DNA from: Candidatus Zixiibacteriota bacterium
GTDB taxonomy: Bacteria; Zixibacteria; MSB-5A5; GN15; JAAZOE01
Direction: 5' to 3'
Assembly: GCA_030668485.1 (NCBI GenBank)
Contig: DAOUTW010000032.1
Coordinates: 1-47,797, forward strand
Length of the DNA: 47,797 nucleotides
Shown here piece after piece: positions 26,034 through 33,580 of this stretch. The first letter of the stretch is position 1, and the number at the start of each line of letters is the position of its first letter. Below the pieces are notes generated by a model. The model was given only the letters and a program-made list of their open reading frames with translations. It was not told where the DNA came from and ran no database searches. The position numbers and the translations under genes are program-made.

Positions 26034-26103
26034 GGTTTTATCAACTGATAATTCCTCACATCAGGAGAAACACGGACCTTAACCCTTTTTCATGGAGTTT
26101 GCT

Positions 26104-26346
26104 ATGGCGAGTGAGCAAATCAAACAAGCGCTCAGAGAAAGCGGCCTCATCTTCTCCACCGATCAGGCTTCCACGCCTGAATCATCCGAGGAGCCTTTGG
26201 GCGGACTTTGCATACTCTTTTGCAGAGAGCAGTGCTGGCTGGGTTGCATTAATCTATGCGATTCAGGAGCATGCTTCGGCAGTTCGTGCGTCGGAACCTG
26301 TGCCCTGCAGTGTATGGTTGGTTGCGTTGTTGATCGTCGCCAATAA
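26104..26346 (+). CDS. Cysteine-ladder RiPP precursor peptide
   Basis: An 80-residue peptide. Residues 1-34 have the look of a leader: polar, with an amphipathic segment EQIKQALRESGLIFSTD, an acidic SSEE stretch and then PLGG. Residues 35-80 look like the core: cysteines at 36, 40, 44, 48, 52, 57, 62, 66, 70 and 74, i.e. CX3C steps with two CX4C steps in the middle, ending VVDRRQ. There is no other cysteine. The second ATG is the better start because GGAG (26094-26097) stands 6 nt before it; the first ATG overlaps that site. Directly downstream lie a radical SAM/SPASM maturase and an ABC exporter. This layout and spacing suggest a sactipeptide/ranthipeptide-like thioether peptide; disulfides or metal binding are alternatives. 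The product is unknown. Confidence 0.8.
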   Translation: MASEQIKQALRESGLIFSTDQASTPESSEEPLGGLCILFCREQCWLGCINLCDSGACFGSSCVGTCALQCMVGCVVDRRQ

Positions 26347-26417
26347 GCGATCAAGTATCACAACAAGAATCAAACATTGGCGTATCAAGACTGCCCATCC
26401 GGGCGACATTTGAGAAC

Positions 26418-26450
26418 GCAACGGGACGCATATGTCTCGCGTCCCGTTGC
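26418..26450 (+). promoter_or_regulatory. Intercistronic hairpin between precursor and maturase
   Basis: A perfect 12-bp stem (GCAACGGGACGC / GCGTCCCGTTGC) with a 9-nt loop lies 71 nt after the precursor stop and 49 nt before the maturase start. No T-tract follows, so it may protect the 3' end of the precursor mRNA or partly attenuate read-through, giving more precursor than enzyme. Confidence 0.7.
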
Positions 26451-26499
26451 CTGATTGCGAAATCAACATGAGTTGTGGAACGGAAGGAGACCGGTTGCT

Positions 26500-27975
26500 G
26501 TGGAATATAATAACCAGGATATCTATGCCGTACACCCGGAAGTCATTCTTCGGAATGATGGTAAATATATTGCCGCGGGATTTCCCGACCCTATTACGGT
26601 CGTAACTTCCCGTCTGGCTCCGATAGAAGGCGTTGTCCTCAGTATGTTCAACGGCGAAAGAACATGCGAGGAAATTGTGGATCTCAGTTCCGCCATGGTC
26701 GCGGAATCATCAAAAGATCCAATGAAAGATACCGAAAAGCTGGTCAGAAAGCTGATGGAAAGGCATGTCGAGCCGCTTTTAAATATGCCGCGTCCGGTTC
26801 TGGCGAAGAAAGCGCAGCTTTCGCCGGGAGAACTGAATCGTATCAAGCCCTATGAACCGACCGATTATATCGTGGCTCCCGATAAATACCGGCCAAAGGA
26901 TTTCAAACTGTCCTATCCGGCAGGCATTCTCTGGCTTTTAACCAACGAGTGCCAGGTTAATTGCCAGTATTGCTATATGCATAAACCGAAAATGACCAAA
27001 AAGGAAATGCTGCCATGGGAAAGACTTAGAGAACTCTTGTACGAGGCCAACGACAACGGACTCATGGGTTTTTACGTCTCGGGCGGAGACATCTTATGCT
27101 ATCCCCATCTATTCGATCTGCTGGAAGTGATGGATGAACTGGACTTCCACCCTATCTCCATAGCCACCAAGGGATACATATCACCCGAAACCGCCGAACG
27201 GCTGGCCTGCCACAAATCGGTCTGCCAGATTCAATTCAGTATCGATTCTACTGTTCCGGATATCGCCGATTTCCTGACTCAATCGCCCGGGTTTTGTCAA
27301 CGAACCATGGAATCAATCCGCAATTCACAAAAAGCCGGCATAAAAAAAGTGAGTGCCAAAGCAGTGATCACCCCTTATAATATCGCTACCATTCCGAAAT
27401 ATTACCGTGACCTCAAGGCAATGGGACTGGAAGAGATCCTTATGGCGACCTACTGCAAAAGCGGCTACCATCACGACGACAGACTGTTTAATCATCCTGA
27501 AGATTATACGTGGCTGGATAAGCAGTTCGATAAACTCCGCCAGGAGTTTCCCAACGATTCCATCCAGTATCAAAACGGCGCCCCCCAGGTGGAACCGTTG
27601 TCTCAGGAGGTTCGCGAGAAAAGGTGGAAGCAGAGAGCCCGCTGCACCGCCGGCCGGGATATGATGACCGTATGCGCCAACGGTAAAGTGGTCGCCTGCG
27701 AACAGATGCCGGAAAGATACGAAGATTATATCGGTGATCTGAGAACCCAGTCAATCGCAGAGGCATGGAACGGCAAAGAGATGGATGAATATCTGTTTCA
27801 CCCGCCCCGCGAAAAATTCGCCGGCACCCCCTGCTTCGACTGCGATGAATTCGACGACTGTCAGTCGGTTATCGGGCAGTGTGTGCGCAACAGTTGCATC
27901 TTTTTCGGAACTCGCTGGGCGCCGGTGCCTAATTGCCCGAAATTGCCAGCCGAACCGTATGTGCGGGAATTTTAA
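26500..27975 (+). CDS. Radical SAM/SPASM peptide maturase with N-terminal RRE domain
   Basis: 491 residues from GTG. Residues about 8-95 resemble PqqD-type RiPP recognition elements: three strands (AVHPEVILRNDG, YIAAGF, PITVVTS), then APIEGVVLSMFNGERTCEEI and a helix. The radical SAM core has the cluster motif CQVNCQYC (Cys151, 155, 158) and YVSGGD in place of the GGE motif. The C-terminal SPASM/twitch domain has Cys382, Cys392, GKVVAC (Cys400), then Cys445, 448, 454, 461, 466 and 479, enough for two auxiliary Fe-S clusters, with a CX6C step where CX3C is usual. Such enzymes form thioether or C-C links in peptides. An upstream in-frame TTG exists, but AAGGAG (26484-26489) supports GTG. TAATG overlap couples it to the exporter. 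Confidence 0.9.
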   Translation: MEYNNQDIYAVHPEVILRNDGKYIAAGFPDPITVVTSRLAPIEGVVLSMFNGERTCEEIVDLSSAMVAESSKDPMKDTEKLVRKLMERHVEPLLNMPRPVLAKKAQLSPGELNRIKPYEPTDYIVAPDKYRPKDFKLSYPAGILWLLTNECQVNCQYCYMHKPKMTKKEMLPWERLRELLYEANDNGLMGFYVSGGDILCYPHLFDLLEVMDELDFHPISIATKGYISPETAERLACHKSVCQIQFSIDSTVPDIADFLTQSPGFCQRTMESIRNSQKAGIKKVSAKAVITPYNIATIPKYYRDLKAMGLEEILMATYCKSGYHHDDRLFNHPEDYTWLDKQFDKLRQEFPNDSIQYQNGAPQVEPLSQEVREKRWKQRARCTAGRDMMTVCANGKVVACEQMPERYEDYIGDLRTQSIAEAWNGKEMDEYLFHPPREKFAGTPCFDCDEFDDCQSVIGQCVRNSCIFFGTRWAPVPNCPKLPAEPYVREF

Positions 27976-29810
27976 TGACGGAAGATCGTAAAAAGAAAAA
28001 TAATACGCCGGAAGACGGCGCCGGACGGGGTTTGAAATCATGGTGGCGGCGAGCCGTCGGACCGCTGGCATATATCTGGCGTCTGCGCGGAGAGGCAACC
28101 CGCTATCGGTGGCGGCTTCTGACTATCGGATTGCTGGGTGTCGCCGCTTACAGCCAGTCATTAATCGCTCCCCAACTGACCCGCAAAATCATCGATGTCG
28201 CTTACCCGGCGCGTGATTTCAATCTGTTTTATATCCTCAGCGCCATTATGGTCGGACTCAATCTGATCTCTTCTGGTCTCAACGCCGTCTCAAGCTATAT
28301 TTCAACCTACACCAACAATATGATTTCCTTTTGGATCAGGATGCGTGTTATTCATGGGCTTCATCGAGTACCGGTGTCGTACGTCGAAAACCACCAGTCC
28401 GGAATGTTCCTGGAACGGATTGCCTCCGATGCCGACAGGGCGGCGGCCAGCGTGGCCAACATTATTCCGCAGATTACGATGCTGATTCTCACCACCATTC
28501 TGACAATCGGCATGATGGCCAATATCTCGCCGTTGGTGACGATCCTGGTGCTGGCCATTGTTCCGCTTTATTACCTCACCAACAGCATCATGTCGGTCAA
28601 ACTCAGGGAATGGCATAAAAAATCCCGCCTCAAAGACGAACAACTTACCACCCGCGCCACCGAGGCGATTCAGGGTGTTCCCACGGCTCGCTTATTCGGC
28701 GTCGGCAACTGGCTTAAATCGAAGTACACCAAACTGCTGAGAGATCGGATCAAAATCGCCTTCGGGATGTGGCGCGCGCGCCTCATATGGGGGCAGCTCA
28801 GTTGGGCCGTCAGTTACGGCTGGGGAGTCGTCCTTACCATCGGCGGCTGGTACCTGGTTTTTCAGGATCGTCTCACTCTGGGTGATGCGGTCGCGCTCGG
28901 AATGTATATCCCGCTGCTGTTGCGACCGGCCGAACAGGCATTGGGGCTCTATCAATCGTTGATGGCTTCGTCGGTCAATGTTCAGCGTGTTCTCGAAGTT
29001 CTTGATGCCGCCCAAAACGGAAAGCCGGCGCGAGCCTCCTCAACGCTGATAATCAGCAAAGGCGTTAGCCTTCGAGACGTCAATTTCACCTACCCCGGGT
29101 CCGAATGGACCTTGAAAAAACTATCGTTGGATATCCCGTGCGGTGAAACGATTGTGGTCATGGGATCCACCGGCAGCGGCAAAACCACCATGCTGCGTCT
29201 GCTGGCCGGGATGTTCGACACCTATAAAGGCGACATCGTCGCCGACGACCATCCTCTGGCTGATCTGAGGTTGTCCACGTACCAGGAGAATGTCGCCATG
29301 GTTATGGCCGACAACTTCTTCTTTAGCGGATCGATTATGGAAAACATGCTTATTGCCCGCCCGCAGCTTAACCCGCAGCAGGTTAAAGAGGCGGCCCACA
29401 CGCTCGGCATCGACCGCTGGCTGGAATCTTTGCCCCAGGGATACGACACCTGCCTCGGTGTCGGTGGAATTCGCTTGTCGTCAGGCCAGACACAAAAGGT
29501 GGCCATTCTCCGCGCATTATTGAAAAAGCCGCGATTGCTGCTTCTGGATGAAATCACCTCGGCTATGGATGTCGAATCGGAACGCTATATTCTTGACGGC
29601 ATGCAAACTTTGCGGATTCCGGAAATGATGACGATAGTAACCACTCATAGGCTGACATTGACCACCGAATCATGGATTGACCGGGTACTGGTGCTATCCG
29701 ACGGCGCCATTGTTGAGATCGGCCCGCCGCGTGAGCTATACGCCAAAGGCGGCGAATACAAACGCCTCATGGACCTCGCCAACCTCGGCGAACTCATCAA
29801 ACAACGTTAA
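27975..29810 (+). CDS. ABC exporter of the RiPP operon (no peptidase domain)
   Basis: 611 residues: a basic N-terminus, a six-helix type IV exporter membrane domain (about 45-330) and an ATPase domain with Walker A GSTGSGKTTM (about 397), signature LSSGQ (about 500), Walker B LLLLDEITSAMD (about 520) and an H-loop in VTTHR. It is probably a homodimer that exports the modified peptide. The C39 leader-peptidase domain found on many bacteriocin exporters is absent, so leader removal needs another protease or does not happen. The ATG shares one base with the maturase stop (TAATG), so the two are translationally coupled. It is not closely similar to the heterodimeric pair at the left of the window. 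Confidence 0.9.
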   Translation: MTEDRKKKNNTPEDGAGRGLKSWWRRAVGPLAYIWRLRGEATRYRWRLLTIGLLGVAAYSQSLIAPQLTRKIIDVAYPARDFNLFYILSAIMVGLNLISSGLNAVSSYISTYTNNMISFWIRMRVIHGLHRVPVSYVENHQSGMFLERIASDADRAAASVANIIPQITMLILTTILTIGMMANISPLVTILVLAIVPLYYLTNSIMSVKLREWHKKSRLKDEQLTTRATEAIQGVPTARLFGVGNWLKSKYTKLLRDRIKIAFGMWRARLIWGQLSWAVSYGWGVVLTIGGWYLVFQDRLTLGDAVALGMYIPLLLRPAEQALGLYQSLMASSVNVQRVLEVLDAAQNGKPARASSTLIISKGVSLRDVNFTYPGSEWTLKKLSLDIPCGETIVVMGSTGSGKTTMLRLLAGMFDTYKGDIVADDHPLADLRLSTYQENVAMVMADNFFFSGSIMENMLIARPQLNPQQVKEAAHTLGIDRWLESLPQGYDTCLGVGGIRLSSGQTQKVAILRALLKKPRLLLLDEITSAMDVESERYILDGMQTLRIPEMMTIVTTHRLTLTTESWIDRVLVLSDGAIVEIGPPRELYAKGGEYKRLMDLANLGELIKQR

Positions 29811-29838: not shown

Positions 29839-29904
29839 TGTGCCCGGCAAATGTCAACATCTGCCGGGCAATCGGGCACATGTGGGCATGTGCCGCGCAC
29901 AGTA
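29839..29904 (+). repeat. Intergenic repeat family 2, copy 1
   Basis: A ~66-nt GC-rich element carrying TGCCCGGCA / TGCCGGGCA pairing (29841-29849 with 29862-29870) and ATCGGGCACATGTG followed by CATGTGCCGCGCACAGTA. A close copy in the same orientation lies at 32755-32828 beyond the STAND ATPase gene. The first hairpin could terminate the RiPP operon, without a clear T-tract. Confidence 0.8.
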
Positions 29905-30176: not shown

Positions 30177-30210
30177 GCGACAGCCAAAAACCGGCCCCTG
30201 CCGGCGTGAC
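30177..30210 (+). repeat. Intergenic repeat family 3, copy 1
   Basis: A 34-nt unit, GCGACAGCCAAAAAC plus GGCCCCTGCCGGCG, recurs at 32987-33020 in the same orientation with two differences. Shorter versions of the GCCCCTGCCGGCG part also occur nearby (about 30041). Confidence 0.75.
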
Positions 30211-32754: not shown

Positions 32755-32828
32755 TGTGCCCGGTCCGCCGCGGCGGATCAACATCTGCCGGGTAATCGGG
32801 CACATGTGGACATGTGCCGCGCACAGTA
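32755..32828 (+). repeat. Intergenic repeat family 2, copy 2
   Basis: A close copy of 29839-29904, with a small insertion holding the palindrome TCCGCC-GC-GGCGGA. It begins 9 nt after the STAND gene stop. The 295-nt gap to the next gene also holds the hairpin CCCAGGTCT-AA-AGACCTGGG at 32943-32962 and no gene. Confidence 0.8.
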
Positions 32829-32986: not shown

Positions 32987-33020
32987 GCGACAGCCAAAAA
33001 CAGGCCCCTGCCGGCGCGAC
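32987..33020 (+). repeat. Intergenic repeat family 3, copy 2
   Basis: The second copy of the 34-nt unit at 30177-30210, same orientation, two mismatches. It abuts the 3' end of the lipoprotein gene of the sphingolipid-like operon. Confidence 0.75.
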
Positions 33021-33040
33021 AGCCAAAATTAGGCCTCTGC

Positions 33041-33580
33041 CTATTGCTTGAGGGTGGCCTTGAACGGGCCTTCGACTTGGAATGATTTGTTGCTCGTATT
33101 GAGATAATTACCCTTGAAACTGCCGAAAATATCGTCTTTCCTCAACGAATCGATAACCACCGAACCGGATTGACAAATAAATAAATTCTCTCCGACACCA
33201 TAATTCAAACTTCCGGTAATCTCACAAATCGCCTTGTTCCGGGTATCATATTCCTTCAATGACAACCGCGGCGGCAGGACAATATAAAAACGAGCCGTTT
33301 CCGCAACATCCAGAGCGGCCACCCCTTCTTCACCGGCGCTGAATGTCTTGCCCCGCCCCTCGATAAACAAAACCATGCTGTCGGCCGGTGTCAGTTCGAA
33401 CCGCCCGGCGGTCAGGGCAATCGATTTCCCCATCCGGTAATATGCATCCCGAAACCGAAACTTGCTCGCCTCACTCCCGGTGACTTCTTCGCTCATCTGA
33501 AAATAAGTCCTCTTGCATGATCCGGCGAAGACGATCACCAAAAGCAAGGCAACGATTATAAAAAATATTTTCTTATTCAT
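33041..33580 (-). CDS. Hypothetical lipoprotein
   Basis: 179 residues. A hydrophobic signal (KIFFIIVALLLVIVFAGSC) ends in the lipobox FAGSC with Cys about 22. The mature part is beta-rich (FELTPADSMVLFIEGRGK, ARFYIVLPPRL) with two late cysteines (AICEITG and LFICQSG). No family was recognised. It starts 2 nt after the stop of the acyltransferase gene, with GCAGGTG as ribosome binding site, so it belongs to the operon with the two sphingolipid-like enzymes and may serve the same lipid or envelope process. Confidence 0.8.
   Translation of the reverse strand: MNKKIFFIIVALLLVIVFAGSCKRTYFQMSEEVTGSEASKFRFRDAYYRMGKSIALTAGRFELTPADSMVLFIEGRGKTFSAGEEGVAALDVAETARFYIVLPPRLSLKEYDTRNKAICEITGSLNYGVGENLFICQSGSVVIDSLRKDDIFGSFKGNYLNTSNKSFQVEGPFKATLKQ

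Follow-up and report, generated by a model that had tools for sequence, protein, structure and literature searches.

The window, a stretch of 47,797 nucleotides from a Candidatus Zixiibacteriota bacterium, carries three consecutive genes on its forward strand that very probably encode a RiPP precursor and a maturase of a new, previously unnamed radical SAM/SPASM family, followed by an ABC exporter. The maturase family is regarded as new because no NCBIfam cut-off was reached, and no family-level model in that collection came near its cut-off for any of the family members scanned. The precursor gene is conserved next to homologous maturases in a second genome of the same order (G027), in a more distant genome of the class (G111), in Paenibacillus and on rhizobial plasmids. 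The original prediction of a new RiPP family is thus borne out with respect to the maturase, which is unnamed and has a conserved peptide partner, but not with respect to the type of peptide, as periodic-cysteine radical SAM peptides have been catalogued before.

The precursor gene (26104–26346, forward strand) begins with an ATG at 26104 preceded by a Shine-Dalgarno (SD) sequence, GGAG, at 26095–26098, and both its frame and its start are backed by the homologue in G027. It encodes 80 residues, of which 1–34 form the leader and 35–80 the core, with GG immediately ahead of the core and the motif IKQALRESGL at leader residues 6–15. The ten cysteines that had been described earlier were all found exactly in place in the translated frame (positions 36, 40, 44, 48, 52, 57, 62, 66, 70 and 74), giving spacings of 4, 4, 4, 4, 5, 5, 4, 4 and 4. 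In shuffles of the 46-residue core, the p-value is about 1e-5 for at least seven spacings of exactly 4 and about 5e-6 for nine spacings that are all 4 or 5. Furthermore, ten cysteines within 46 amino acids occur once in the window, compared with 0.01 expected occurrences in shuffled windows. The peptide was covered by no family model in scans with NCBIfam and Pfam-type models.

The maturase gene (26500–27975, forward strand, 491 aa) starts with GTG at 26500 behind the SD sequence GGAAGGAG; this codon was chosen over an earlier TTG, and the G027 homologue begins at the matching residue. The exporter gene (27975–29810, forward strand, 611 aa, with a membrane domain and an ATPase) begins on the last nucleotide of the maturase stop codon, a 1-nt overlap. 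Tight coupling, which had been proposed for all three genes, therefore applies to maturase and exporter but not to precursor and maturase, which lie 153 nt apart with a stem-loop between them (26418–26450, forward strand) whose 12-bp stem is perfect (arms 26418–26429 and 26439–26450). At the same place in G027 the spacer has a stem of 11 bp whose sequence differs, and the spacers of the window and G027 both fold better than their shuffles (z −2.5 and −4.0). Because a U-tract is missing at the hairpin in both spacers, we read it as a probable partial attenuator or mRNA-processing or stabilising stem, which would let the precursor exceed the maturase. Hairpins between precursor and maturase that raise the former over the latter are known from other RiPP operons.

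The exporter is without a C39 peptidase domain, and neither the source genome nor G027 yielded a C39 peptidase. The leader is therefore either removed by a protease outside the operon or retained, and the GG ahead of the core can be tied to no known protease. Genes for PAP2, macro domain and DUF4097 proteins adjoin the trio, with that of a TPR protein on the other side; none of these neighbours is repeated around the G027 trio, and we therefore take the trio itself as the unit. GC content (52% vs 50%) does not point to recent import. The gene of the TPR protein is flanked by extragenic repeats of 51 nt that are 96% identical (29854–29904 and 32778–32828), and a second extragenic family of 34 nt, 65–94% identical, lies by the same gene (30177–30210, 32987–33020 and 33016–33049).

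As proposed from the start, the maturase combines a radical SAM domain with a SPASM C-terminus. The motif CX3CX2C is formed by C151, C155 and C158, and the seven SPASM cysteines are C382, C400, C445, C448, C454, C461 and C479; all ten are invariant across five intact maturases. In a tree with 23 other SPASM and radical SAM proteins these five form one clade (support 100/98), joined next by two rhizobial enzymes (98/94) and then by PqqE (88/72). PqqE, outside the family clade, is the nearest named enzyme, and the family lies closer to it than to the Clo7bot/CefB-like SPASM group. The sister-clade rhizobial enzymes are located at L118 1–5158 and L116 2494–3870 (reverse strand), and one of them, on a Mesorhizobium huakuii plasmid, has an FAD oxidoreductase and split LodA/GoxA CTQ-oxidase genes in its vicinity.

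A PqqD-like N-terminus had also been claimed for the maturase. HMMER with Pfam did not see a PqqD domain there, but profile-profile alignment did: hhalign matched the N-terminal profile to a PqqD profile with a probability of 77%, which rose to 90% over 59 columns once the plasmid maturases were added, while 200 column-shuffled controls of the smaller N-terminal set reached at most 1.3%. The PqqD profile was made from seven PqqD domains of the class, with one Rahnella PqqD included in the last run. Residues from about 28 to 90 are therefore likely to form a PqqD-like RRE, as judged from these alignments. The single-sequence AlphaFold model of the maturase had a pLDDT of 36, too low to be of use.

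Relatives were sought in a class sample of 132 genomes (a phylum query yields the same 132), and the sensitive family searches covered plasmids, phages, viral contigs and the class of the window. The trio expected in related genomes is present, complete, in one other genome of the 132, G027, which belongs to another genus of the same order; its maturase is 56% and its exporter 65% identical to those of the window, and its peptide likewise has ten cysteines, with the leader MANEEIMKALEESGL compared with MASEQIKQALRESGL in the window. In G111 the maturase is 28% identical over its full length and directly preceded by a peptide with CGSTCTGGCKAGCYTC. Searching plasmids with tblastn retrieved full-length maturase homologues from Paenibacillus peoriae, Rhizobium sp. 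CB3171, Mesorhizobium sp. L-2-11 and Aminobacter. The Paenibacillus peoriae maturase (31% identical to that of the window and 36% to that of G111; its gene is split into two frames) follows two tandem small peptides ending in CGQCEAGCINCQTGC and CTMGCSMRCTSCSPGC plus short tails, and the rhizobial maturases (Rhizobium, Mesorhizobium and Aminobacter) follow peptides of 77–78 aa ending in GCDSCTVCPCMICW. In the plasmid records these genes are labelled 'radical SAM protein' or 'hypothetical protein', or the peptide gene is unlisted. A small peptide whose C-terminal part is rich in cysteine is thus not absent beside homologous maturases but accompanies them in several lineages. In G111, Paenibacillus and Mesorhizobium the maturase has no exporter next to it, and the exporter therefore falls outside the family core.

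No maturase relatives were found in phages, and back-translated maturase patterns run over genome contigs and viral contigs returned none. In the 132 genomes, a DNA pattern of five cysteine codons 9 nt apart gave matches overwhelmed by TGC/TGT repeats in other frames. Cysteine-rich ORFs in G089, G022, G053 and G063 (L067, L068, L066 and L038) were provisionally put aside as unrelated or unlinked. Two of these loci encode Lys- and Cys-rich proteins of 122 and 133 aa that are related to each other and seem to be secreted (L067 3932–4300 and L068 4057–4458, both on the reverse strand), with runs in which every fourth residue is cysteine; they are possible metal-binding proteins. Immediately after the family maturase, Rhizobium and Mesorhizobium encode a further radical SAM enzyme that differs from it (L116 7490–8851 and L117 7553–8854), and the peptide there may be modified twice.

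All precursors have a short leader segment resembling I-x-x-x-L-x-E-x-G-L. In every leave-kin-out test the best match was this segment, with p from 0.001 to 0.055, a statistic weakened by the alignment of the segments by eye before the test; from their sequences, the leaders of the family appear to share a weak motif. The cores are variable in their spacing. Spacings of 4 or 5 in the window compare with 3–6 (after one of 10) in G027, 4, 4, 4, 3 in G111, 4, 4, 3, 4 and 3, 4, 3, 4 in Paenibacillus and 3, 3, 2, 3 in Rhizobium. The near-strict i, i+4 ladder, from which a single helical face had been suggested, is real in the window peptide and special to it; the range of 2–6 among its relatives weakens the helical reading, and because core spacing varies between members a strict helical face is no property of the family. 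No acceptor is conserved among family members in the residues between the cysteines, and an Asp/Thr-type acceptor pattern is not present in the core. Of the features of the core, only cysteine is kept across family members from unrelated bacteria.

In our proposed mechanism, the maturase would recognise the short leader segment IxxALxESGL through its probable N-terminal PqqD-like domain and then act several times along the cysteine-rich core, most likely linking the sulfur of cysteines to carbon atoms in residues close by, so that a series of small thioether rings results. The modified product would leave the cell through the ABC transporter, and a protease outside the operon would cut off the leader. 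By analogy, thioether rings would be the likeliest product, a view we hold with middling confidence, because cysteine is the sole shared core feature and is the crosslink donor in the characterised radical SAM systems with cysteine-rich precursors, SCIFF and PapA (PMC8326336, PMC9413430). The same donor role and the retention of cysteine across unrelated bacteria weigh against other radical chemistry on the core, such as C-C or C-O crosslinks, epimerisation or oxidation, after which the cysteines would form disulfides or bind metal upon export. Such chemistry is a possible though clearly less probable course: the family is nearer to PqqE than to the Clo7bot/CefB-like group, PqqE makes a C-C bond, and the core offers neither a conserved thioether acceptor nor a constant spacing. 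A bolder form of the thioether reading, in which one RRE-radical SAM-SPASM enzyme places up to ten consecutive rings on a strict cysteine ladder, picks acceptors by position rather than residue type and so defines a distinct RiPP class of rigid ladder peptides in several bacterial lineages, seems to us doubtful. A categorically new kind of peptide is unsupported, since TIGR04115/04117/04118, NF038107, TIGR04340, SCIFF and PapA are already catalogued.

Ten close-set cysteines beside an exporter would also suit an exported metal-binding peptide, either a metallophore or metallothionein-like, with the radical SAM enzyme in a side role. We consider this unlikely, given that maturase homologues are accompanied by a peptide even at loci lacking a neighbouring exporter and that the common leader motif and the probable PqqD-like domain imply that the peptide is the substrate of the enzyme. 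That the locus is not a RiPP system at all, with the peptide being an ORF that arose by chance or a small protein unconnected to the SPASM enzyme, which matures something else, is very improbable: small ORFs are easily over-called and this one is without a family model, yet frame, leader and cysteine-rich core are conserved in a second genus, peptide-maturase pairs recur in several lineages and the spacing has a p of about 1e-5.

The preferred reading of a precursor and its maturase adds an unnamed maturase family, which RefSeq annotates just as 'radical SAM protein'; its matched precursors occur in Bacillota, Pseudomonadota and the lineage of the window. Ranging from 5 to 10 cysteines, the natural precursors constitute graded substrates for asking how a single SPASM enzyme works its way repeatedly along a peptide, and the same series bears on whether ring formation is governed by the spacing of the cysteines or by the identity of the acceptor.

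The source genome has further candidate RiPP-like loci. One cluster (G000:C128, L074 2133–8488) has a SPASM maturase near Clo7bot/TIGR04463/CefB that scores 352 bits to TIGR04334, under the cut-off, together with a second SPASM enzyme, a B12-type radical SAM enzyme and an ABC exporter; two short similar ORFs upstream, MLYLIDPKDLCGAKCWPF... and MIYLVDPRENISLKCRFYC..., are candidate precursors without an NCBIfam match. At G000:C109 (L073 2275–6187), a 36-aa ORF ending in MKKTDRPCPCYKMFFPIICSAD precedes three radical SAM/SPASM enzymes, of which two are tandem Clo7bot/TIGR04463-like SPASM maturases. This may be another RiPP locus.

Several known systems resemble the one described here. The CXXX-repeat peptides (maturase TIGR04115; precursors TIGR04117 and TIGR04118) likewise carry a cysteine at about every fourth residue beside a SPASM enzyme; the precursor matches are below threshold (TIGR04118, 15.1 bits for the window; TIGR04117, 21.9 bits for G111; cut-offs 35 and 50 bits), and the window maturase, at 15.1 against a cut-off of 350 bits for TIGR04115, lies outside that family. 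The 'Cys-every-fifth' system of CefB (NF038107) is alike by name, as a periodic-cysteine RiPP with a SPASM enzyme, but the maturase locus is not among the NF038107 matches at E≤10, whereas other enzymes of the same genome are. The ACGX model (TIGR04340) also excludes the maturase (62.1 vs 400 bits). The ranthipeptides SCIFF and PapA/PapB (freyrasin) share several cysteines in a short core and, probably, an RRE-radical SAM-SPASM enzyme. PapA consists of six CX3D units with i, i+4 donor-acceptor spacing (PMC9413430), whereas the window core has no CX3D pattern and its +4 position is the next cysteine; with no CX3D/E core and 43.6 against 340 bits, the window system is not of the PapB type (NF047865).

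Sactipeptides such as subtilosin A, thuricin CD and ruminococcin C similarly pair cysteine donors with a radical SAM enzyme bearing a SPASM or twitch domain and an exporter nearby. Their donor cysteines precede an acceptor block in a hairpin topology, whereas those of the window are spread over the whole core, and the maturase scores 32.6 against 850 bits for AlbA. A PqqD-like recognition domain is probably common to the window maturase and the PqqE/PqqD system, in which PqqD is a separate protein and the product of PqqE is a C-C crosslinked cofactor (PMC8326336). The ladder is therefore a variant among already known periodic-cysteine radical SAM peptides, its maturase family and leader type are separate and unnamed, and it is the most regular long ladder among the family members seen here.
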